Source: a virus. From it: a DNA stretch of 47,114 nt. The stretch is from the IMG/VR virus record IMGVR_UViG_3300027754_000153, positions 1-47,114 of that record; one strand, written 5' to 3'. How positions within the stretch are numbered: the stretch's first letter is position 1; the number at the start of each line of letters is the position of its first letter. A program made the position numbers and the translations under genes. Of this stretch, positions 6,494-44,506 are shown one piece after another. Under the pieces are notes generated by a model. It searched no databases. It was not told the origin of the DNA and saw only the letters and a program-made list of their open reading frames with translations.

Positions 6494-7015
6494 ATGGCGA
6501 AATTAAATGGGCAGTTCATACCAGTACCACGATGGGTCTTGGAATACCTAGGTCAAGATGCAGTGGCACTCTGTGTGCTTATACATGCTCTGACTTACAT
6601 GAACGGCGATAGGCAAGACATAACAACGTCCTACGACCACCTAGCCGAACTTACTGGGTATGACCGTAGAACAGTCATTCGGGCTATGAACCGTATTGAG
6701 TCGTCTGGTGCTGTTATCAAGACAGTGCGAAAAGGTAAGACTGGCAGAAGCATGACGAACCTCTATCGGGTTGATTTCAACAATCCAAATTCTCGTAGGG
6801 GTGACACTGTAGACACCCCTAGGGGTGTCACTGGTGACACTAGCGGGGTGTCACTGGAGACACCCTCGGAGGGTGTCACTGCTGACACCCAATCTAGAGA
6901 GACTAATCTTTATCTAGAGGGGAAATCCAAAAAGAGAAAGAAAGATGCCCTATTCTTATCGGACCCTAGGTGGCAGCGTCAACTTAAAACTGTCAAAGAA
7001 AGCGAGCAGAAATGA
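6494..7015 (+). CDS. Winged-helix replication-initiator-like protein
   Basis: 173 residues, ATG 6494 with a purine-rich site (GAAGAAGGAAGC). Residues 1-100 form a winged-helix domain: VPRWVLEYLGQDAVALCVLIHAL..., then DHLAELTGYDRRTVIRAMNR (helix-turn-helix) and a basic wing (VRKGKTGRS). Residues ~101-135 are a Gly/Thr/Asp-rich linker whose DNA contains four palindromic iterons. A basic tail follows (GKSKKRKKD). The helicase-loader gene follows after one intervening locus. This is the organisation of lambda O or DnaD-like initiators that bind an origin inside their own gene. The HTH is confident; the initiator role is inferred from context and iterons. Confidence 0.75.
   Translation: MAKLNGQFIPVPRWVLEYLGQDAVALCVLIHALTYMNGDRQDITTSYDHLAELTGYDRRTVIRAMNRIESSGAVIKTVRKGKTGRSMTNLYRVDFNNPNSRRGDTVDTPRGVTGDTSGVSLETPSEGVTADTQSRETNLYLEGKSKKRKKDALFLSDPRWQRQLKTVKESEQK
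6799..6890 (+). repeat. Four palindromic iterons inside the initiator gene: putative replication origin
   Basis: Four copies of a 20-bp dyad, consensus GGGTGTC-ACTGnn-GACACCC, at 6799-6818, 6823-6842, 6846-6865 and 6871-6890. Start-to-start spacing is 24, 23 and 25 bp, about two helical turns, so bound proteins would lie on nearly the same face. Copies 3 and 4 have perfect arms; copy 1 has one mismatch (GGGTGAC) and copy 2 a degenerate right arm. The downstream 6891-6960 is A/purine-rich and could be the melting region. In lambda and relatives iterons lie within the O gene; by analogy this is the likely origin. Confidence 0.75.
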
Positions 7016-7164
7016 AAAGAACTATGCGATGGATGTGGGATTACGAAACCCAGGTCACGGATGAAAAAGGCAAAATTGTAAAAGGTACTGCTTTGTCTTT
7101 AGAGCCAGTGGAAGGTAGCAAGAGAGTGAGGGTTGCTCATTACACGCCAAAACAAGAAGGGTGA
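7012..7164 (+). CDS. 5' segment of a frameshifted gene, 50 aa
   Basis: ATG 7012 overlaps the initiator stop (ATGA). The 50-residue product starts MKRTMRWMWDYETQVTDEKG and ends HYTPKQEG at TGA 7162-7164. In the +1 frame the text continues immediately as DDWDVKVIGADEPEPEQP, and the next frame has no good start codon. So the two frames probably encode one protein of about 180 residues joined by a +1 shift at GGG-TGA, or the assembly has an extra base. The product itself is unrecognised. Confidence 0.55.
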   Translation: MKRTMRWMWDYETQVTDEKGKIVKGTALSLEPVEGSKRVRVAHYTPKQEG

Positions 7165-7561
7165 TGACTGGGATGTAAAAGTTATTGGGGCAGACGAGCC
7201 TGAGCCTGAGCAACCAAAAGTTCTGGAAAAAAAGCAAGGGCTTACACACATGGTTAGATACTTTCGGGATGTCACCACCAGCACATCCATGACTTTAAAC
7301 GCTCCTGTAAACGGCCCAGCCTTGATGAAGATATTTAAAGACATGTTATCTAAGTCGGTAACACCTATTCAGATTTATCGGATGATTGATATTTTTGCAG
7401 ATGATATTAAGCGCACTCCATTAGGAAACCAAGAAGTTCCTTGGATAGCATTTGCTGGTCGCAGAGGTGGGTTGCTTAAACGCATCGCATCCGATACTCT
7501 TCCAACAGTTCCACAAGAAGTTAAGTTTGATCCACGATTGGAGAAGTACCTACATGACTGA
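7133..7561 (+). CDS. 3' segment of the frameshifted gene, unknown protein
   Basis: The open frame runs to TGA 7559-7561. The only upstream start is a TTG at 7133 with a poorly spaced ribosome site; the first in-frame ATG is at 7250. The visible sequence has an acidic Pro linker (GADEPEPEQP) followed by a helical domain (THMVRYFRDV, LMKIFKDMLSKSVTPIQIYRMIDIFADDI). Its lack of a credible start supports fusion to the 7012 frame. Position between initiator and helicase loader suggests a replication accessory role, which is inference. Confidence 0.55.
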   Translation: MLITRQNKKGDDWDVKVIGADEPEPEQPKVLEKKQGLTHMVRYFRDVTTSTSMTLNAPVNGPALMKIFKDMLSKSVTPIQIYRMIDIFADDIKRTPLGNQEVPWIAFAGRRGGLLKRIASDTLPTVPQEVKFDPRLEKYLHD

Positions 7562-8195
7562 ATGGCATGGTCCTCGCTACTGGAGAAATCGTAAGCCAGC
7601 AGAGCGAGTAAGTAACGCACACATCCCGAAACGGTACATGGATAAGACATTGGATAGTTACAACGAAGACGTTGGTAGTTGGGGTGTAACTAAAGCAATT
7701 CGTGGCTGGGCAGCCAACATTGATGAGAACCTTGAGAGTGGTGAAGGTCTGTACTTTTGTGGCGCTACAGGAACAGGTAAGACCCATCTCGCTGCTGCAC
7801 TCTTGTCAGAGATTCTTTTTACTAAACAACTTGGTGGCTTCTTTATTACAGCAGAAAAGTTTATTGCTGCAACCTATGACGAATTGCGATCTGATGGTGA
7901 ACTTCCAGATGAGTACGGTGATCCATACCTTTTGAAGTACATCAACTCAGTTTTTGATGTTGTTGTACTAGACAGTTTGGGAAGCGAGAAGAAGACAGAG
8001 TTTACAAAGAATGCAATTGCTACTTTGTTGAATAGTCGCTATGAGCAGAAACTGATTACCATCGTTACTTCCGAGTTCAGTATTGCTTCTATTGGAAATA
8101 ATTATGGACCGAGGCTTGCATCTATTTTGCAAGATGCTACACTTCAGATTCCCTTTGAAGGAAAGGACTACCGAGTTACACAACATGCAGGGTAA
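7554..8195 (+). CDS. DnaC/IstB-like AAA+ helicase loader
   Basis: 213 residues from ATG 7554; an upstream TTG at 7452 lies well inside the previous gene. Walker A is GATGTGKT at about 70-77, Walker B VVVLDSLG at about 137-144, and a sensor-like strand KLITIVTSEFS follows. The N-terminus (IPKRYMDKTLDSYN) is the usual lead-in of DnaC/IstB ATPases. It should load the DnaB-like helicase encoded two genes downstream onto melted origin DNA. Its start overlaps the upstream stop by 8 bases. Confidence 0.88.
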   Translation: MTEWHGPRYWRNRKPAERVSNAHIPKRYMDKTLDSYNEDVGSWGVTKAIRGWAANIDENLESGEGLYFCGATGTGKTHLAAALLSEILFTKQLGGFFITAEKFIAATYDELRSDGELPDEYGDPYLLKYINSVFDVVVLDSLGSEKKTEFTKNAIATLLNSRYEQKLITIVTSEFSIASIGNNYGPRLASILQDATLQIPFEGKDYRVTQHAG

Positions 8196-8628
8196 TGATC
8201 TCGCCTCTTTTGCACCACATGTGCAAGCAACTATGTTTGAAGGCATACTTGCGTCAGAGCCGACAAGGACAGTTGAAAGAGTTAAAGCCGCTTTCTTTTT
8301 AAGGAACGAGAAGTGGGATGCTTACTTAAAGTTGTGGACTACAAACCCACTTCCAGTAAAACATCTAAGTGATTCAATCCATAGGTTGGGAGTTGGTACA
8401 GAGGTGTATACATTGTTTCCTCCTGGTTTTGCTGAAGCAATTGACAGGTGGCTATTGAAGAAGGGGATATCAACAAACGTGGTTTCATTTGACAACATTG
8501 AAGACCTTGCTTTTGAGTTGCAGTTCAACAGAGGCATTGCAAAAATCTACACCGCAGATCAAGAACAGGCAAAGGTAATCGGCATGCGAGCAACAGTTGT
8601 GTCTACGACTACCTCGTGGTCTCTCTGA
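8185..8628 (+). CDS. Unknown protein between helicase loader and helicase
   Basis: 147 residues using ATG 8185 (11-base overlap with the loader); longer starts run far into that gene. I do not recognise the family. The C-terminal half reads like an alpha/beta fold: FAEAIDRWLLKKGISTNVVS, then DIEDLAFELQ-type helix and IAKIYTADQEQAKVIGMRATVV, a strand-helix-strand order reminiscent of HAD-like proteins but without their catalytic Asp motif in view. The stop overlaps the helicase ATG (TGATG), so it is probably co-translated replication machinery. Confidence 0.6.
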   Translation: MQGNDLASFAPHVQATMFEGILASEPTRTVERVKAAFFLRNEKWDAYLKLWTTNPLPVKHLSDSIHRLGVGTEVYTLFPPGFAEAIDRWLLKKGISTNVVSFDNIEDLAFELQFNRGIAKIYTADQEQAKVIGMRATVVSTTTSWSL

Positions 8629-9893
8629 TGGCTAGCGCAGAACAACTCTTAATTAGCAAGGTAGTTCAGGAGCAAGACCTTTCATACTCCTTGAAGCATG
8701 GCGTGAAAGCGCAATACTTTACTGCTGAGTGGGAAATTGTTTGGGAGTGGTTAGTTTCCTTTTGGAGAGAGCATGGAGAAGTTCCGACTACCCGTGCAAT
8801 CAAACAAGAGTTTGGTGACATCAAGTTTGTTGATGCAAAGGGTGAGCCATTTAGCGCCCTTGTTAATGAAATCTATGCTTCATATCGTCACCGCAACTTG
8901 GTTGAAGCAATGTCTGCTGCAATGCCTGCAATACAAAGTGGGGATACCACTGAGGCGTTTAAACTACTTGCTGCTGGAGTGCAAAAGGCTGGGGCAGATG
9001 TTGCTCGCCTACGAGATGTAAACCTTATTGAAACTTGGGAAGACCGAGTAAACAAGTACGATGAACTTCGTAAGATGCCTAATGCCATTCGTGGTATTCC
9101 TACAGGTATTCAGGGCCTTGACAGGATTACATCAGGGTTGCGCCCACAGCAGTTGATTACCTTTGTGGGTGAAGCCAAGAAGGGTAAGTCCTTGATGACC
9201 TTGATGATGGCTAATGCGGCTCACATTCACGGTAAGCGTCCACTCTTTGTATCTTTTGAAATGTCAGCAGAGGAGCAAGCAGCACGGTATGACGCAATCG
9301 TTGCCAAAGTTCCGTACAGCAACATTCTTCGTGCATCACTATCTGACCAAGAGTTTGAGCGTGTTCGTGAGACTCTGCGTATGCGTAAGAACATGCATCC
9401 ATTTGTGATTACAGAAGACACAGCATCTGTAACAACTGTTAGCGCACTAACCGCAAAGGTCAAGGAGTACCAACCTGACATTTTGTTTATTGACGGTGTG
9501 TACTTGATGGATGATGAACAGGGTGAGCCAAAGGGAAGCCCACAAGCATTAACAAATATTACTCGTGCATTAAAAAGGCTTGCACAAAACCAAGACATTC
9601 CAGTCGTTGGAACTACTCAGGTTTTGTCATGGAAGTTGGGTAACAAGAAATCACGCCGTGTAACGGCTGACTCCATTGGTTACACTTCTTCTTTTGCTCA
9701 GGACTCTGACTTGGTACTAGCAGTGGAGTCAGACCCTGATATTGAAAACCAGGGAATCATTCGTGTTGTCTTGGCTCGTTCTGCACCACTAGGTGAAATC
9801 AGAATTAACTGGGATTGGAATAACATGGACTTTACAGAAGTAGGAGAAGAAGGCGATGATAAGGACGATGACAGGGACAACTGGTATTACTGA
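8628..9893 (+). CDS. dnaB: DnaB-like replicative helicase
   Basis: 421 residues from ATG 8628 (an in-frame GTG at 8616 is also possible). Residues 1-120 are the helical N-terminal domain; a linker follows, then the RecA-like domain from about 157 (GIPTGIQGLDRITSGLRPQQ). Walker A is GEAKKGKS at about 181-188, motif H1a LFVSFEMSAEE at about 206, and Walker B DILFIDG at about 284-290. It would unwind DNA 5'-3' as a hexamer at the fork, with the loader and primase encoded on either side. The acidic C-terminus (GEEGDDKDDDRDN) is unusual. Confidence 0.92.
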   Translation: MASAEQLLISKVVQEQDLSYSLKHGVKAQYFTAEWEIVWEWLVSFWREHGEVPTTRAIKQEFGDIKFVDAKGEPFSALVNEIYASYRHRNLVEAMSAAMPAIQSGDTTEAFKLLAAGVQKAGADVARLRDVNLIETWEDRVNKYDELRKMPNAIRGIPTGIQGLDRITSGLRPQQLITFVGEAKKGKSLMTLMMANAAHIHGKRPLFVSFEMSAEEQAARYDAIVAKVPYSNILRASLSDQEFERVRETLRMRKNMHPFVITEDTASVTTVSALTAKVKEYQPDILFIDGVYLMDDEQGEPKGSPQALTNITRALKRLAQNQDIPVVGTTQVLSWKLGNKKSRRVTADSIGYTSSFAQDSDLVLAVESDPDIENQGIIRVVLARSAPLGEIRINWDWNNMDFTEVGEEGDDKDDDRDNWYY

Positions 9894-10785
9894 TGTAGCA
9901 GATGTGCTACGCCAACTTGGTGTGGACGTTCGGCGTATCGGAGAGCAAGAGATTTCTGCTTGCTGCCCAGTGCACTACAAGCGAACAGGGAAAGCAGATG
10001 GCTCTCCTTCGTGGTCAATGAATGCCAACACAGGGCTATGGCTTTGCTATTCCTGTGGTGCCAAAGGAACTCTTTCTTCGCTTGTGTCTGAACTGACTGG
10101 CGAGAGTGACTCAATCATTGCAGTGCACACGTTCCTTGTGTCTAGTGGTTTAGATCGCATGCATACGACTCAGGCTATTGAAAAGCGTCCAGTAGTTGAC
10201 TGGAAGGTGTTTAGCGCTTTTCCTGCGCCATCGGATAGGTGGATTAAGACTCGTGGAATTGATCGTGAATCCGCAAAGAAGTATGGGATTAGGTTTGTAG
10301 AGGACAAGCAGACTTGGATTCTTCCTATTGTTTCCCCAATGGGGGAGTTGGACGGATGGCAAGAAAAAGAAGCATCACGGGTGCGTAACTACCCAATTGG
10401 TGTTAAGAAGTCAGAAACACTCTTTGGTCTTGACAAGGCAGACAGTAATATTGGGATCCTTGTGGAGTCCCCATTGGATGTAGCACGTATCGCTACAGTG
10501 ATGACTGGGGTAAGTGGTGTGGCTTCTTTTGGGGCGCACATCAGCAAGCAACAGATTTCATTGTTGGTTGAGCATTTTGATGGGTTAATTGTTGCCTTGG
10601 ATAATGATGATGCAGGGATTAATTCTGCTAAACGCTTAAAGAAGTTACTTCCAGCCTTTAGGCATGGTGTAAACTGGTTGCACTACGCACACACGGACGC
10701 AAAAGACATCGGTGACATGACACACGAACAAATCATTACGGCAGTTACTCAAGCATCGGTATTCCCTTGGTGGCTCAATGTTTAA
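9856..10785 (+). CDS. DnaG-like primase with CHC2 zinc finger and Toprim core
   Basis: 309 residues. ATG 9856 is favoured by the site GGAGAAGAAGG just upstream and overlaps the helicase by 38 bases; ATG 9868 is the alternative. Zinc ligands C37-x2-H40 and C64-x2-C67 form the CHC2 ribbon. The Toprim domain shows the catalytic Glu in ILVESPLDVA (about E204) and the acidic pair in VALDNDDAG (about 249-252). A C-terminal helicase-interaction domain is missing, so it is shorter than bacterial DnaG. It would lay primers for the fork. Confidence 0.88.
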   Translation: MIRTMTGTTGITDVADVLRQLGVDVRRIGEQEISACCPVHYKRTGKADGSPSWSMNANTGLWLCYSCGAKGTLSSLVSELTGESDSIIAVHTFLVSSGLDRMHTTQAIEKRPVVDWKVFSAFPAPSDRWIKTRGIDRESAKKYGIRFVEDKQTWILPIVSPMGELDGWQEKEASRVRNYPIGVKKSETLFGLDKADSNIGILVESPLDVARIATVMTGVSGVASFGAHISKQQISLLVEHFDGLIVALDNDDAGINSAKRLKKLLPAFRHGVNWLHYAHTDAKDIGDMTHEQIITAVTQASVFPWWLNV

Positions 10786-12322
10786 AGGAACTCTGTATCC
10801 TTTTCAAGAAGAAGCCACGGAACAGATGGTTGATCGTGGTCAGATGCTCTTGGCCCTTGTGATGGGTGCTGGTAAAACTATTACCACAATTGCGGCTATT
10901 GAAAGCCTTCAAGAATCAGGAGAAGTTTCCAAGACTCTTGTTGTTGTTCCATCTTCATTGAAGTATCAATGGGATCGTGAAATCAAAAGGTTTACTGATT
11001 CATCTTGCATTGTTATTGACGGTGGTGCAGCAGCAAGAAAGAAGTTGTGGAGAACTGCGATCAGTGCTCAATACGTCATTGTGAATCCAGAGTCACTTGC
11101 TAATGACCTTGCTCATTTTGAAAAACATAAGTTTGATGCGATTGTTGTAGATGAAGCCACAATGATTAAAACACCACGAGCAAAGCGTTCCCGCTTGATA
11201 AAGCGACTTGGTAAAAAGTATCATTACAGGTTTGCGCTTACAGGACAACCTATTGAAAATCGCCCAGAAGAACTGTTCTCCATTATGGAGTTTGTTGACC
11301 CAGCGATACTAGGTAAGTTTGAAGTGTTTGATAGAACTTTTATTGAACGAGATCACTTTGGTAAACCAAAAAGGTATCGGAACTTAAAGTCATTACACAC
11401 AAGTATGGAAACTGTAATGATTCGCAAGACCCGTGAGGACATTGCTGACCAGTTACCTGTAGTAATCCAACAAGTAGTTCCCGTACCATTTGACCCTTTT
11501 GGCGCTTCAACCTACAGAAAACTCTCTGATGACTTGCTTAATGCTATTCAGAAAGCAATGACAGAGCATGGAAGAGGTTTTGACTTGTGGGCGCACTACT
11601 ACGGAAACAATAAAGGCATGGAAGCCCAAGGTGACATTATGTCCAGGCTTACTACTCTTCGCATGTTCTGTGATAACCCCGCCTTAGTAAAGATGTCAGC
11701 AGAGATGTATTTGGATGCCAAGAATGATCAAGGTAGTAAGCATGCTTCTCAAGTTGTAACTCAAGGATTAATTCAAGATAACTTCAACACACCAAAACTT
11801 GATGCAGTAATTCAATACATTACAGATGTCTTGGAAGAAGATCCAAAGAACAAAGTAGTGTTGTTCTCATTTTTTAAAAACAACCTACGGTTACTTCAGC
11901 AAGCAACCAAGGACGTTACACGGAGTGTTTTGTTTATGGGTGGGATGGACATGCTGGATAGGGATAAGTCCAAACAGCAATTCTCCACCGACCCAAACAC
12001 TCGTTTGTTTTTATCATCGGATGCTGGTGGTTATGGTGTAGACCTACCTATTGCCAACTACCTTATTTCCTATGACCTTCCGTGGAGCGCTGGGAAACTG
12101 GATCAAAGAGAAGCCAGAATCATTAGGTTGTCATCTGAGTTCCCACACGTTAACATCGTGTCATTCGTTATGAAGGGCAGTATTGAGGAAAGACAATACG
12201 AGATGCTGCAAGAAAAACGGGGAATCAATAAAGCATTTATTGATGGTGGTTATGATAATAAGGGAAGTTTCCAATTAAACCTAGGTGCTCTTTCAGAGTT
12301 CCTACGACACAACGAGGTATGA
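10778..12322 (+). CDS. SNF2-type superfamily 2 DNA helicase/translocase
   Basis: 514 residues, start overlapping the primase stop. Motif I is MGAGKT (about 29-34), motif II VVDEAT (about 123-128), motif III ALTGQPIENR. The C-terminal helicase lobe ends with SYDLPWSAGKLDQREARIIRL, matching the SNF2 motif V/VI region. Such phage proteins sit in replication operons and may act in recombination-dependent replication or fork remodelling. A second SNF2-like protein is encoded at 43.0 kb. Confidence 0.88.
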   Translation: MFKGTLYPFQEEATEQMVDRGQMLLALVMGAGKTITTIAAIESLQESGEVSKTLVVVPSSLKYQWDREIKRFTDSSCIVIDGGAAARKKLWRTAISAQYVIVNPESLANDLAHFEKHKFDAIVVDEATMIKTPRAKRSRLIKRLGKKYHYRFALTGQPIENRPEELFSIMEFVDPAILGKFEVFDRTFIERDHFGKPKRYRNLKSLHTSMETVMIRKTREDIADQLPVVIQQVVPVPFDPFGASTYRKLSDDLLNAIQKAMTEHGRGFDLWAHYYGNNKGMEAQGDIMSRLTTLRMFCDNPALVKMSAEMYLDAKNDQGSKHASQVVTQGLIQDNFNTPKLDAVIQYITDVLEEDPKNKVVLFSFFKNNLRLLQQATKDVTRSVLFMGGMDMLDRDKSKQQFSTDPNTRLFLSSDAGGYGVDLPIANYLISYDLPWSAGKLDQREARIIRLSSEFPHVNIVSFVMKGSIEERQYEMLQEKRGINKAFIDGGYDNKGSFQLNLGALSEFLRHNEV

Positions 12323-23037: not shown

Positions 23038-24420
23038 GTGGCTAAGAAAGATCCAAACGAATTCAAGTGGAAACCAGAGGCTACGGCTAAGACATATAAA
23101 GATGCCAAAAAAAGGTATTCTGCCAAAATGAACGATAAGGATAGAGCCAAGTTAATGACAGATGTAACGGCTGCTGGTGGAAGTTACAAGGAACTGTCTG
23201 ACGAAGAAGTAGCAGCAAAAGAAAGTGATAATAAGCCACCAACCCCCAAAGAACTAGGGACTGTGCTAAAAGAAACTGGCAAGAAGCCTAAAGCAGGTAA
23301 GAAGCCTAAAGCAGAAGCAATGCCTAAAACGGAAATGAAGCCTAAAGTAGAAGAGAAGCCTACTGCCCCTGCTACTGCACAAGTTCCTCGTAAAGATAGT
23401 TCAAAGCAAGTTGTTGACTTGGGTAGGTTTAAGGGCACAAAGAAGATGGATGCTATTACTGATGCAGCCGAAAAAGAAAACCAAGACTATTTGAATTCTG
23501 ATGAAGGCAAACAAGTTAAAGCAGACTCTGCTGAAGCAAAAGCATTGTGGAACTCCCCCGATGTTCCGACATCTTCTGAAGAAGCAAAGGATCCAGAAGT
23601 TTCTGCCCCTATTGCTGATAAGAAGTCTGGTGGAGCATACATCCTAAATACGGACAAGACAGGTAAGTCAGAACCAGTAACTGGTACAAAGAGCCAAGCA
23701 AAAGGTACAGCCGCTATGAATCGTATTCGTAGAGACCGTGACAGTGGCTTGCGTGGGTTTGATCCAACAACAGCACCTGAAGGTCGTGGTACACCTGGAC
23801 CTGAATTCCATGACTGGTCTGATGAAGACGCTGGTATTACCAAGTCAATGCCACCCGCAACAGCAGATAAGTCTGCTAAAGGTGGAATGGGTGCTCGTCT
23901 TCGTGGCTTCTTTGGTGGACATGATTCGGCTAAAGGGTCACCTCTACCAACTCCAACTCCTTCAGCAGGACCAACTCCAACTCCTTCAGCAGGACCAACT
24001 CCTTCTACATCAACATCATCTCCGATGGCACCTACTTCTTCACGGTCACAACACTTTCAAGGTGGTCATACTGTAAATCAACAAGGTATGGGTGGGCAAA
24101 ACTTTAATGCTTTCAATGACAATGGTGGCGGTGGTGCACCTCCAGCAGGTGGTGGCAGTGGTTCAATCAATAACAACTATGCCACTATTCAAGCAAACAC
24201 TGGTGATGGCAACACCTATGGCAATGTTAAAGGCGCAACTATTAACAGTGGTCCAACAGTAGCCAGTACAGCAGGTAGGGCTACATCTGCAAATAAGAAT
24301 GCAAATGTTCTTTCAACAGGCGGTCCAGCAACACAGACAAGCGCAAAAGCGCAAAACGCTAAAAGTTCTGGTCGCCCAACAACATCTAAGCCAAAGAATC
24401 CACGAACGGAGAAGCCATAA
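23038..24420 (+). CDS. Large disordered Lys/Pro/Gly/Asn-rich protein
   Basis: 460 residues from GTG 23038 with a strong site (GAGGAG). Residues ~80-125 carry K-P-K-x repeats (KKPKAGKKPKAEAMPKTEMK); ~300-325 a P-T-P-T-P-S-A-G repeat; ~340-400 a Gly/Asn-rich stretch with NQQGMGGQNFNAFND, shared with the 25710 product. The C-terminus is basic (TSKPKNPRTEKP). No enzyme motif. Disordered repeat proteins of this kind can be virion decoration, scaffold or condensate-forming proteins; I cannot choose. Confidence 0.65.
   Translation: MAKKDPNEFKWKPEATAKTYKDAKKRYSAKMNDKDRAKLMTDVTAAGGSYKELSDEEVAAKESDNKPPTPKELGTVLKETGKKPKAGKKPKAEAMPKTEMKPKVEEKPTAPATAQVPRKDSSKQVVDLGRFKGTKKMDAITDAAEKENQDYLNSDEGKQVKADSAEAKALWNSPDVPTSSEEAKDPEVSAPIADKKSGGAYILNTDKTGKSEPVTGTKSQAKGTAAMNRIRRDRDSGLRGFDPTTAPEGRGTPGPEFHDWSDEDAGITKSMPPATADKSAKGGMGARLRGFFGGHDSAKGSPLPTPTPSAGPTPTPSAGPTPSTSTSSPMAPTSSRSQHFQGGHTVNQQGMGGQNFNAFNDNGGGGAPPAGGGSGSINNNYATIQANTGDGNTYGNVKGATINSGPTVASTAGRATSANKNANVLSTGGPATQTSAKAQNAKSSGRPTTSKPKNPRTEKP
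23947..24003 (+). repeat. 24-bp tandem repeat encoding PTPTPSAG
   Basis: Two exact 24-bp units at 23947-23970 and 23971-23994, plus the first 9 bases of a third. They keep the reading frame and encode repeated P-T-P-T-P-S-A-G. Slippage there would change linker length without frameshift. Confidence 0.85.
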
Positions 24421-27733: not shown

Positions 27734-28218
27734 TGCTCGTAGTCACCTTTGACGTTTTAGCCTACGCACCAACTGATAAGGCAATGGTTCCAGGCGCAAG
27801 ACAACCAATACCTGATGGTCAAAAATTGTACGAAGCCTTGTACGCAAGGTATCACGGAAGAATGATTATTCTTGGTGGTAATGACATTGATCCTGAAATG
27901 TTAAACGCTTGGGCTAAACGAGAAGGCTATAAGTTTGCACTTGCAGATACGGTGAAAGGAAAAGGACCAACAGCCTTCCGTGACCGTGTTCGTGACTTGA
28001 ACGCAGTCTACGGAAAGATTGATTGGTTTGTGGATACCAATCCTGAGACTGTCACGCTTGTAATGCAGGATGCTATTCCCAGCATTTTAGTTTGTTTGCC
28101 TAACTTTGTTCGCCCAGAATGGCGAGATAATAAGCCCAAAGAGCGCCAGATATGGAGTGATCTAGCACATGAAATTGATGTACAGTCTCTCTACAAAGAC
28201 GTAGGAGCCTCTGAATGA
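27733..28218 (+). CDS. Unknown alpha/beta protein, HAD-like at first sight
   Basis: 161 residues from GTG 27733. Strands and helices alternate (MLVVTFDVLAY, RMIILGGNDIDPEMLNAWAK, GYKFALADTVKG, IDWFVDTNPETVTLVMQDA, IPSILVCLPNF). The N-terminal F-D-V-L resembles a HAD motif I, but the expected second Asp is Leu/Ala, so catalysis as a HAD phosphatase is doubtful. It overlaps the TGT-like gene (ATGA) and may act with it. Confidence 0.55.
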   Translation: MLVVTFDVLAYAPTDKAMVPGARQPIPDGQKLYEALYARYHGRMIILGGNDIDPEMLNAWAKREGYKFALADTVKGKGPTAFRDRVRDLNAVYGKIDWFVDTNPETVTLVMQDAIPSILVCLPNFVRPEWRDNKPKERQIWSDLAHEIDVQSLYKDVGASE

Positions 28219-29651
28219 AAGTTTACTTTGCCAATGCTGAAAAGGCATCCCACAGGTCATTGCTTCAGGCATCAGGTGTCACGCAATACGCAGTGAATCT
28301 CACCCATTTGCCAATTCCTAAGAAAAAAGAACTTGATTTGTCTGTAATGTTCCCTGCTGGGGACATCGTTCTGTACACCTCGGAGACTGATGAGGATGTC
28401 AGTCGCTATGACGATTTTGTCAGACAGCACTACGAAAACATTGCAATGGTCATAGGAAGACCCGATTATGACGGTACTTGGCTAGGTGAACGCTATATTC
28501 CTGTATGGAATGACCCAGACGATATGGAACGACTTGCGTGGTTATGCCAGAAGAATGGCAGAGCAGCAATCAGCGACAAAGCAGTTAATGGCAAAACAAT
28601 ATCCCGCATTAGAAACCTAGTCCAAAGGTGGGATGCCAAATTGATTGGGTTGTCGTCCAAGCCCGATGTTATTGCTTCACTGCCTTGGGATTCAGTAATT
28701 GTGGGTTCTTGGACATCTGCCGTTCGTTATGGCGAGACTCAGGTTTGGGATGGTCATGGGCTACGCCGATACCCAGCACAACAGAAAGATTCCGCCCGAA
28801 AGAAGCACCGAAACGACATCATTAAACTAGGTATTGACTACGATGCCATTGTTCAAGATGATAACTCTGAGGTAGCAAGGCTTGCAATCGTGTCTTGGCA
28901 AGCATGGGAAAAGACAACTTTTGGGGTCTATGAGCCTCAAGAACTTGATGATGAGCAAGAAATTGGTCTATCAGAAAGTGTCACGGATAGTAACTATCCC
29001 AGCAATGTGCCTTCCGTTCCAAATGTGGCTCCTAGGGGGTCAAGTATTAGTATCCGAGGTGCTGAGATGCGGCACGAGGATGACAAAGTATTACTACCTG
29101 TCATTGGTATTGAGCAATTCACTCCACAACTCGCTCAAACCCTTGCTGGTGATGAAGAATCTGAAGAATTAGGCGTTGAAAAGATACCAGTAATTTCGTA
29201 TAAAGGCAACCTTTTACGTCAATGCAATAGTTGCTATCTCAGCGCTCGTTGCCCTGCTTTCCGACAAGATTCTGAGTGTGGCTTTAAGTTGCCTGTAGAG
29301 ATTAAAACTAAGGATCAGTTACAAGCCGCATTGAGGGCAATGTTGGAGATGCAAGTGAGTCGTGTTTTGTTCGCTCGCTTCGCTGAAGAACTAGAAGGTC
29401 AAGGTCTTGACCCAGCACTTTCAGGAGAAGTAGACAGGCTCTTTAACCTTGTTGAGAAGTTTAGGAACATAAGTGATACACGGGATATGGTTCGCTTAGA
29501 AGTAGAGGCTCGTGGAAGCAGTGGAGTGTTGAGTCGCTTGTTTGGGCAGAGTGCTGGGGATGTCACTAGGCAGTTGTCAAGTGGGGGATTAAACGCCCAT
29601 CAAGCCAATACCATGTACCAAGATGTCCTAGATCTTTCGGATGATGCTTGA
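28215..29651 (+). CDS. tRNA-guanine transglycosylase/DpdA-like protein with C-terminal Cys domain (tentative)
   Basis: 478 residues. The start (MKVYFANAEKASHRSLLQAS, GVTQYAVNLTHL) and the block LIGLSSKPDVIASLPWDSVI, VGSWTSAVRYG, VWDGHGLRRY resemble phage queuine-transglycosylase/DpdA-type enzymes, which exchange guanine for 7-deazaguanines in DNA or tRNA. Where those proteins, as I recall them, have Asp in a D-S-x-x-W string, this one has V-G-S-W, so the catalytic Asp may be absent. Residues ~340-478 form another domain with C-N-S-C-x5-C and a later Cys, then helices. No queuosine-precursor genes are in this window. The call is tentative. Confidence 0.45.
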   Translation: MKVYFANAEKASHRSLLQASGVTQYAVNLTHLPIPKKKELDLSVMFPAGDIVLYTSETDEDVSRYDDFVRQHYENIAMVIGRPDYDGTWLGERYIPVWNDPDDMERLAWLCQKNGRAAISDKAVNGKTISRIRNLVQRWDAKLIGLSSKPDVIASLPWDSVIVGSWTSAVRYGETQVWDGHGLRRYPAQQKDSARKKHRNDIIKLGIDYDAIVQDDNSEVARLAIVSWQAWEKTTFGVYEPQELDDEQEIGLSESVTDSNYPSNVPSVPNVAPRGSSISIRGAEMRHEDDKVLLPVIGIEQFTPQLAQTLAGDEESEELGVEKIPVISYKGNLLRQCNSCYLSARCPAFRQDSECGFKLPVEIKTKDQLQAALRAMLEMQVSRVLFARFAEELEGQGLDPALSGEVDRLFNLVEKFRNISDTRDMVRLEVEARGSSGVLSRLFGQSAGDVTRQLSSGGLNAHQANTMYQDVLDLSDDA

Positions 29652-42984: not shown

Positions 42985-43030
42985 CCGATACCATTGACCC
43001 ATGCAATTCAACCAACCGAAGGGAACAGAT

Positions 43031-44506
43031 ATGAAACAGTCAGCACTCGCCAACCTCACGCAATTTATGAGCAACGCACCGATTGAAAAAACTACGTTGT
43101 CAATGCCACAAATGGCACAACCATTGTTGGCACATCAAATCACTGGAGCAGAGTTCGCATTGAAGGAACGCACAGTGTTGATTGCCGATGAGCAAGGTGT
43201 CGGTAAGACAGCCACTGCGATTGCAATCGCAACAGCATCAGTGATCGCTGGCATGACTCCAGTGCTCGTGATCGTGCCAGCCACAATGCGATTGACATGG
43301 AAGCGTGAGTTCGCAAAGTTTGCACCATCAGTGAGCACTACAACCATTCTCGGCACGAACCCAACCAAGTTGAAGATCACTGCATTGCCTGAAGCAGATG
43401 TGTTGATCATTGGCGAAGCATCAGTGCATGGATGGAAAGAATTGTTGAAGAACAATATTGCTGGAATCATCATTGATGAATGTCATCACATGAAAGGTGG
43501 CAAGCGAGCAAAGCGTTCGCAAGCCACGATTGAAATCGCACAGACTGTTCCGTCATCAGGTGTGCGTGTTGCCATGAGTGGTACACCGTTGATTGCTCGT
43601 CCGATGGAATTGTTGCCAGTGATCCAAATGCTGGATCGTGGAGCAACATTCACTGGTGGCATCAATGGCTTCATCAATCGTTACGCACCGAAGATTGATC
43701 CCTACGGCACTCGTGGTGCATCACACTTGAAAGAACTGCATGAACTGCTTGCTGGATCATTCATGATTCGCAGAACTCGTGATGAGGTGCTCACGCTTCC
43801 GAACAGTGGTCGTACACAAGTGTTGATTGAGATGGATGCGAAGCGTGAAGCGAACTACCTCGCTTGCGAAGAGAATCTCATTCAGTGGATTCGCAATACC
43901 AAAGGCGAGGCTCGTGCTCAGAAGGCGATGCTCGCTGAAGCACTTGTATACATCACTGAACTTCGCCACATCTGTGCAATGGGATCTGTGAAAGCAGTGA
44001 CTGCATATGTGCAGGACTTGCTGGACGATGGTGAGCAGGTATTCATGAGCACCAACTTCACTGATGAAGCCGATGCTTACTTCAATCATTTCTCTGAGTC
44101 TGTTCACACTGTCAAGATCGTTGGTGGAATGAATGACAAGGCGAAGCAGGCGAGCGTGGATGCATTTCAGAGTGGTGAGGCACGAGTGTTGATTGGCAAT
44201 GTTGCCAGTGCAGGTGTCGGTATCACATTGCACTCAGCACGACATCATGTGTCGTGTTCATTGCCTTGGGATTCTGCATCACTGCTTCAAGTTGAAGATC
44301 GCATCAATCGCTTTGGACAGGTGCGTGAAACAATTTCGCACATCATGATCGCAGGCATTGATGGCATGACAACGATGGATGAGAAGATGCTCGCCCTCAT
44401 TGAAGCGAAGCACAAGATCATGCTCGGCGTTCTTGAAGGAACTGCTGATGACTTGATCAGTGAGAGCAATGAGTCAATGGTGCAGGCGATCTTGAACAGT
44501 TACTAA
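43031..44506 (+). CDS. SNF2-type DNA helicase/translocase, second copy
   Basis: 491 residues from ATG 43031 (GAAGGGAAC). Motif I EQGVGKT (about 54-60), Ia LVIVPATMRLTWKREF, motif II IIIDECHH (about 147-152), motif III VAMSGTPLIARP; the C-terminal lobe shows VGGMNDKAKQASVDAFQSGE, ARVLIGNVASAGVGITLHSA and EDRINRFGQ, as in SMARCAL1/SNF2 proteins. Different family branch from the 10778 protein. It is alone on its transcript, at the end of the + strand block. Possible role in fork remodelling or defence against host systems; not provable here. Confidence 0.88.
   Translation: MKQSALANLTQFMSNAPIEKTTLSMPQMAQPLLAHQITGAEFALKERTVLIADEQGVGKTATAIAIATASVIAGMTPVLVIVPATMRLTWKREFAKFAPSVSTTTILGTNPTKLKITALPEADVLIIGEASVHGWKELLKNNIAGIIIDECHHMKGGKRAKRSQATIEIAQTVPSSGVRVAMSGTPLIARPMELLPVIQMLDRGATFTGGINGFINRYAPKIDPYGTRGASHLKELHELLAGSFMIRRTRDEVLTLPNSGRTQVLIEMDAKREANYLACEENLIQWIRNTKGEARAQKAMLAEALVYITELRHICAMGSVKAVTAYVQDLLDDGEQVFMSTNFTDEADAYFNHFSESVHTVKIVGGMNDKAKQASVDAFQSGEARVLIGNVASAGVGITLHSARHHVSCSLPWDSASLLQVEDRINRFGQVRETISHIMIAGIDGMTTMDEKMLALIEAKHKIMLGVLEGTADDLISESNESMVQAILNSY

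Follow-up and report, generated by a model that had tools for sequence, protein, structure and literature searches.

For the four inverted repeats that lie within a small winged-helix gene of an uncultivated freshwater phage, the best explanation is an intragenic origin built of iterons, of the type known from lambda O. We consider it very probable that this 92-bp array is a theta-type origin, at which the product of the surrounding gene would bind, an adjoining tract would melt and the helicase would be loaded. The window, by which we mean the whole stretch of DNA analysed, is the entire 47,114-bp virus record IMGVR_UViG_3300027754_000153. What is new is that the initiator is split in two genes and that distant relatives, in which the halves are fused, are without iterons. 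New as well is the recurrence of the dyad in initiator genes across a wide range of dissimilar phages.

An iteron array inside the initiator gene

The 20-bp units start at 6799, 6823, 6846 and 6871 on the + strand, in steps of 24, 23 and 25 bp, and all lie within ORF 6494-7015; a pattern scan confirmed both the positions and the 23-25-bp spacing reported in the initial annotation. Iteron 1 (6799-6818) has the core GTGACACTGTAGACAC at 6801-6816 and is followed by iteron 2 (6823-6842; core GTGTCACTGGTGACAC), iteron 3 (6846-6865; core GTGTCACTGGAGACAC) and iteron 4 (6871-6890; core GTGTCACTGCTGACAC), with iteron 3 read in a frame unlike that of the other three. The units had been described as having nearly perfect arms. 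This holds for the conserved core, GTGWC-N6-GWCAC, whereas the outer arms pair imperfectly (6/7 positions in unit 1 and 5/7 in unit 2). The full unit pattern, GGGTGTCACTGNNGACACCC, has no copy elsewhere in the window at up to three mismatches, against a chance expectation of 0.03 matches.

Directly 3′ of the array lies a candidate unwinding tract (6889-6960, + strand) that is rich in A+T and in purines, as had been noticed before. It peaks at 0.70 A+T over 40 bp, the maximum within ~400 bp on each side (tied by one other 40-bp stretch), and this peak begins 15 bp past the core of unit 4. A search of the whole window for competing tandem arrays returned only very short repeats or repeats with codon-multiple periods, a search of the window for a DnaA-box cluster gave a single isolated match, fewer than chance, and no Rfam match came close to a gathering score. 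Among the coding repeats are those at 23273-23362 and 23946-24017, inside ORF 23038-24420, which step by 18/36 and 24 bp, all multiples of three.

The gene that contains the array (6494-7015, + strand) encodes a small initiator of 173 aa, comprising an N-terminal winged helix (~residues 13-93), a linker written by the iterons and a basic tail. The product matches HTH_36 (E 5e-6) and, best of all, phrog_270, a replication initiation protein (E 6e-14), along with O-like families including PHROG 678 and 391. Its AlphaFold model contains a confident winged helix, and pLDDT falls below 50 for residues 102-151, which span the iteron-encoded linker and the part that follows; the linker is thus predicted to be disordered. 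Winged-helix matches in a fold search were non-specific, with neighbors including the regulators MarR and CodY as well as TubR, and weak neighbors including the Rep/initiator structures 5kbj, 4pt7 and 4pql. A PDB sequence search with the initiator gave weak CodY matches only, a search for a RepA_N domain gave no match, and a search for close relatives among named phages gave one weak match for the initiator and none for ORF 7133-7561.

Downstream on the same strand is a coupled 50-aa ORF (7012-7164), whose start lies in an ATGA overlap with the initiator stop and which sits between the initiator and its probable second half (7133-7561; see below). Next comes a DnaC/IstB-like helicase loader (7554-8195; phrog_50, E 4e-37; IstB_IS21, E 4e-8), so that a DnaC-like loader does follow the initiator as had been claimed. 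A DnaB-like replicative helicase (8616-9893; DnaB_C, E 3e-31), a DnaG-type primase (9856-10785; Toprim_2, Zn_ribbon_DnaG) and, farther downstream, an SNF2 helicase and a family-A polymerase are also on the + strand. The phage carries two SNF2-type helicase genes (phrog_62), at 10778-12322 and 43001-44506, ~31 kb apart. In addition, ORF 28215-29651 is strongly matched by the PHROG for queuine tRNA-ribosyltransferase (E 1.6e-35) and is possibly a gene for 7-deazaguanine modification of DNA or tRNA.

Genome position and GC skew

Nine long related contigs each carry the array once. In the relatives, an A+T-rich 40-bp stretch starts 2-49 bp after the array and is among the richest within ~400 bp in all but two; lambda is alike in this respect. 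The minimum of the detrended cumulative GC skew, proposed earlier as a check on the origin, falls ≤1.3 kb from the array in eight of the nine genomes: at 116-171 bp in four (G001, G002, G004 and G008) and at 1.1-1.3 kb in the window and three others (G003, G005 and G006). In the ninth, G007, it lies 21 kb away. Almost every gene in the nine genomes has the same orientation. At the third codon positions of + strand genes, the skew is negative to the left of the array and zero or positive to its right, without exception among the nine. GC skew supports an origin at the array without settling the matter: tail genes give way to replication genes at this same place, and a detrended minimum on linear contigs depends on the contig ends. 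The 98,060-bp G001 (loci L027/L109) has a 127-bp exact terminal repeat, which makes it a probable complete genome. Only one of its iterons is still perfect, yet its skew minimum remains at the decayed array, and we count this case against the origin reading.

Could the array instead be an operator, through which the winged-helix protein represses or tunes the operon to which it belongs, or an antisense transcript, with no start of replication? Repressors likewise place a winged-helix protein beside dyads, the MarR and CodY regulators are among the fold neighbors, and lambda-type initiators could play both roles. This is nevertheless unlikely, as the array lies 300 bp inside the gene rather than at a promoter, its four units keep fixed steps and lead into an A+T tract, the PHROG families are those of replication initiators with loader, helicase and primase as neighbors, and the skew switch is located at the array. 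We give even less credence to a partition, packaging or recombination site for another protein. Dyad arrays do mark centromere-like and packaging sites, and TubR is a fold neighbor of the initiator, but this array is situated inside an O-like initiator gene, is conserved beside loader and helicase, and recurs in the initiator genes of very different phages.

Conservation of the DNA rather than the peptide

The initial annotation called for conservation of the repeats above synonymous expectation in related phages, and the relatives bear this out. Searches that used the initiator and the loader as queries yielded ~50 related loci, from which 28 distinct proteins were compared. Exactly four perfect GTGWC-N6-GWCAC units are encoded in 25 of the 28. 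The four-unit relatives have steps of 24/23/25 or 30/23/25 and no others, all with frame phase 1,1,0,1, so that unit 3 is always in another frame than units 1, 2 and 4. Accordingly, unit 3 reads VSLETP, VTPETP or VSRVTP among the relatives.

In the iteron segment it is the DNA, not the peptide, that is conserved, since silent half-site positions are frozen while W, the second codon position in units 1, 2 and 4, varies freely despite the resulting Val/Asp swap. Third codon positions in the half-sites show zero variation among the 28 distinct gene sequences with four units, whereas in the winged-helix control none of the 16 third positions is invariant at invariant residues having synonymous codons. 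Given the peptide, the chance of a match is 2-7% per site; in 20,000 synonymous recodings of the window peptide, none produced four GTGWC-N6-GWCAC units and the maximum, three, was reached twice. The spacer differs by lineage, often in concert across units: the window has ACTGGN, L031 and L034 have TCCAGN, and L044 has ACGGGT in all four units. Thus, there is codon-level evidence that a DNA element dictates part of a protein sequence.

The other three proteins still retain remnants of the array in their genes, with three perfect units in L119, two in L118 and one in L109. We also sought relatives that keep the linker and lose the dyads, which had been named as the refuting case. The nearest is L109, where one perfect unit and two with one mismatch leave three of four units within one mismatch. 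Selection on the Gly/Thr/Asp linker as protein, with the DNA repeats as a by-product, is the least credible reading of all: the units do encode GVTGDT-like peptides in the window, which has other coding repeats (23273-23362 and 23946-24017), but those step by 18, 24 and 36 bp while the array steps of 23 and 25 bp are off the codon period, unit 3 is out of frame in every four-unit relative, silent positions are frozen where Val/Asp swaps are tolerated, and the linker is predicted to be disordered.

A split initiator and a proposed origin mechanism

Sequence comparison indicates that two separate genes encode the initiator in the window and its relatives, and that the putative origin lies in the first of them. 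This follows from four distant relatives (L052-L055) that fuse both halves in one 216-224-aa protein ahead of the loader. The N-terminal part of L052 matches the winged-helix profile (E 7.6e-10) and its C-terminal part matches the profile of ORF 7133-7561 (E 2.6e-47), a profile to which the L052-L055 C-parts themselves contributed; in pairwise comparison, which is free of that contribution, the fused C-parts are 31-33% identical to the 7133-7561 product. This product, the detached second half, is probably a replisome-contact domain. It has a weak fold resemblance to proteins of the replisome-organizer type, none of it significant, and a PDB sequence search with it returned nothing plausible.

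A search within the fused L052-L055 genes found no iterons and no convincing repeats. The iteron-in-initiator layout is thus not obligatory. In these relatives the origin must lie outside the initiator gene.

The origin mechanism that we propose would begin with binding of the 6494 winged-helix product to the four GTGWC-N6-GWCAC dyads of its own gene, probably as one dimer per unit with one winged helix per GTGWC half-site. Because the units are 23-25 bp apart, the DNA may become wrapped or bent around the four dimers. The purine tract that adjoins the array on its 3′ side, rich in A+T, would then melt, and the second initiator half (7133-7561) together with the DnaC-like loader (7554-8195) would deliver the DnaB helicase (8616) to the separated strands. 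Recruitment of the helicase loader is more likely to occur through the separate ORF 7133-7561, which the initial annotation had not connected with the initiator, than through the 6494 product. The earlier proposal of an origin inside the initiator gene is supported by the O-like PHROG matches, the DNA conservation, the A+T tract, the skew and the gene order; its other part, binding by the gene's own product, we infer, as we do dimerization, melting and loading. For this group of uncultivated freshwater phages, the array offers a testable origin sequence together with a putative binding protein. Moreover, a split initiator would part origin recognition from the presumed helicase recruitment, and the two steps could be assayed separately.

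Comparison with lambda and plasmid origins

The initial annotation set the array apart from lambda by its nearly perfect arms and by a linker written by iterons. This distinction does not stand, as in lambda, too, O dimers bind iterons that are nearly perfect inverted repeats (PMC5043065), and these likewise write the O linker. Lambda (NC_001416) has four annotated iterons in O, in several frames and with steps of 20/24/23, followed by a purine-rich A tract. The two arrangements are therefore the same in having four dyads at similar steps (24/23/25 in the window) in the initiator gene after the DNA-binding part, units in multiple frames, an A-rich purine tract on the 3′ side and a loader gene downstream (PMC5043065, PMC7466680). 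They differ in unit sequence, TCCCTC..GAGGGA in lambda and GTGWC..GWCAC in the window. Lambda has a single 299-aa initiator, O, and P as its loader, whereas the window has two genes and a loader of DnaC/IstB type, whose families are DnaC-like and not lambda P. A direct comparison of the winged-helix profile with lambda O gave no match. Of the features of the lambda-type class, the window has in-gene dyad iterons, an adjoining A+T/purine tract, an O-like winged helix and a downstream loader; a single initiator with a DNA-binding N-part and a loader-contact C-part, which is absent from the window, belongs to lambda O itself and not to the class.

A similar arrangement is known from RepA_N plasmids such as pSK41, which have a winged-helix N-domain, four Rep boxes in the middle of rep, a linker encoded by the origin and a separate C-domain (PMC5703833). 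In pUSA03, repA (101-1060) contains four (G/A)TGTC-N5-GACAC units at 23-bp steps (L296, 509-595), which resemble the phage half-sites. Both systems place four boxes in the linker-coding part of a gene with a winged-helix N-domain, but the RepA_N replicons are plasmids, their C-domain is fused and their spacer is N5 rather than N6. The initiator family profile did not match pUSA03 RepA. The pPR9-type hybrid initiator has an HTH_36 (pfam13730) N-domain, and its mini-replicon was reported to replicate autonomously (PMC5703833); it shares this Pfam domain with the window initiator, although pPR9 is a plasmid.

Breadth of the iteron word

When sequences were searched for three GTGWC-N6-GWCAC units in steps of 20-30 bp, without regard to the encoded protein, at least 118 viral loci matched, those listed being nearly all in winged-helix initiator genes, whereas the reversed pattern found one. 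Many pattern matches in genome collections were simple coding repeats, unrelated to iterons. Among the matches listed, the arrays typically lie directly after the winged helix, and 73 of the 78 different viral arrays use two or more frames; in a few cases the frame was assigned by a possibly wrong longest-ORF choice. Representative ORFs among the matches listed, one of them a collagen-repeat protein and five from cellular loci, match HTH_36 in 26 of 33 cases and the commonest PHROG O-like family in 28 of 33.

In-gene iterons with an identical word or a close variant are present in Mesorhizobium P1 and in Bifidobacterium phage PMBT6 (MH444512). The HTH-protein gene of PMBT6 has six GTGACACCC-type units, three perfect and three with one mismatch. 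Its iterons are in the initiator gene, as in the window, but it encodes a single 318-aa protein and the spacing is different. Bordetella PHB09 has another word, AAAGGGTGCAA, at 21-22-bp steps, and Pseudomonas U7 likewise has another word; Arthrobacter Jamun, checked for such repeats, has none.

We lean toward the view that GTGWC-N6-GWCAC is a widely shared origin word of HTH_36 initiators from phages and prophages whose sequences scarcely align, placed in the linker-coding part independently of frame and mostly at 22-25-bp steps, with the initiator split at the putative origin in the lineage of the window. No description of a GTGWC-type iteron family was found in the open-licence full-text literature. 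The array thus appears to be a real and well-conserved lambda-type intragenic iteron origin, with a word whose breadth we have not found described. If this is correct, origins of uncultivated phages could be called from DNA alone, and a short DNA pattern finds replication initiators in metagenomes without recourse to protein homology. A cluster of 10 loci (L142, L145, L157 and others) has an initiator linker with three perfect units at 23-bp steps, which are read in all three frames.
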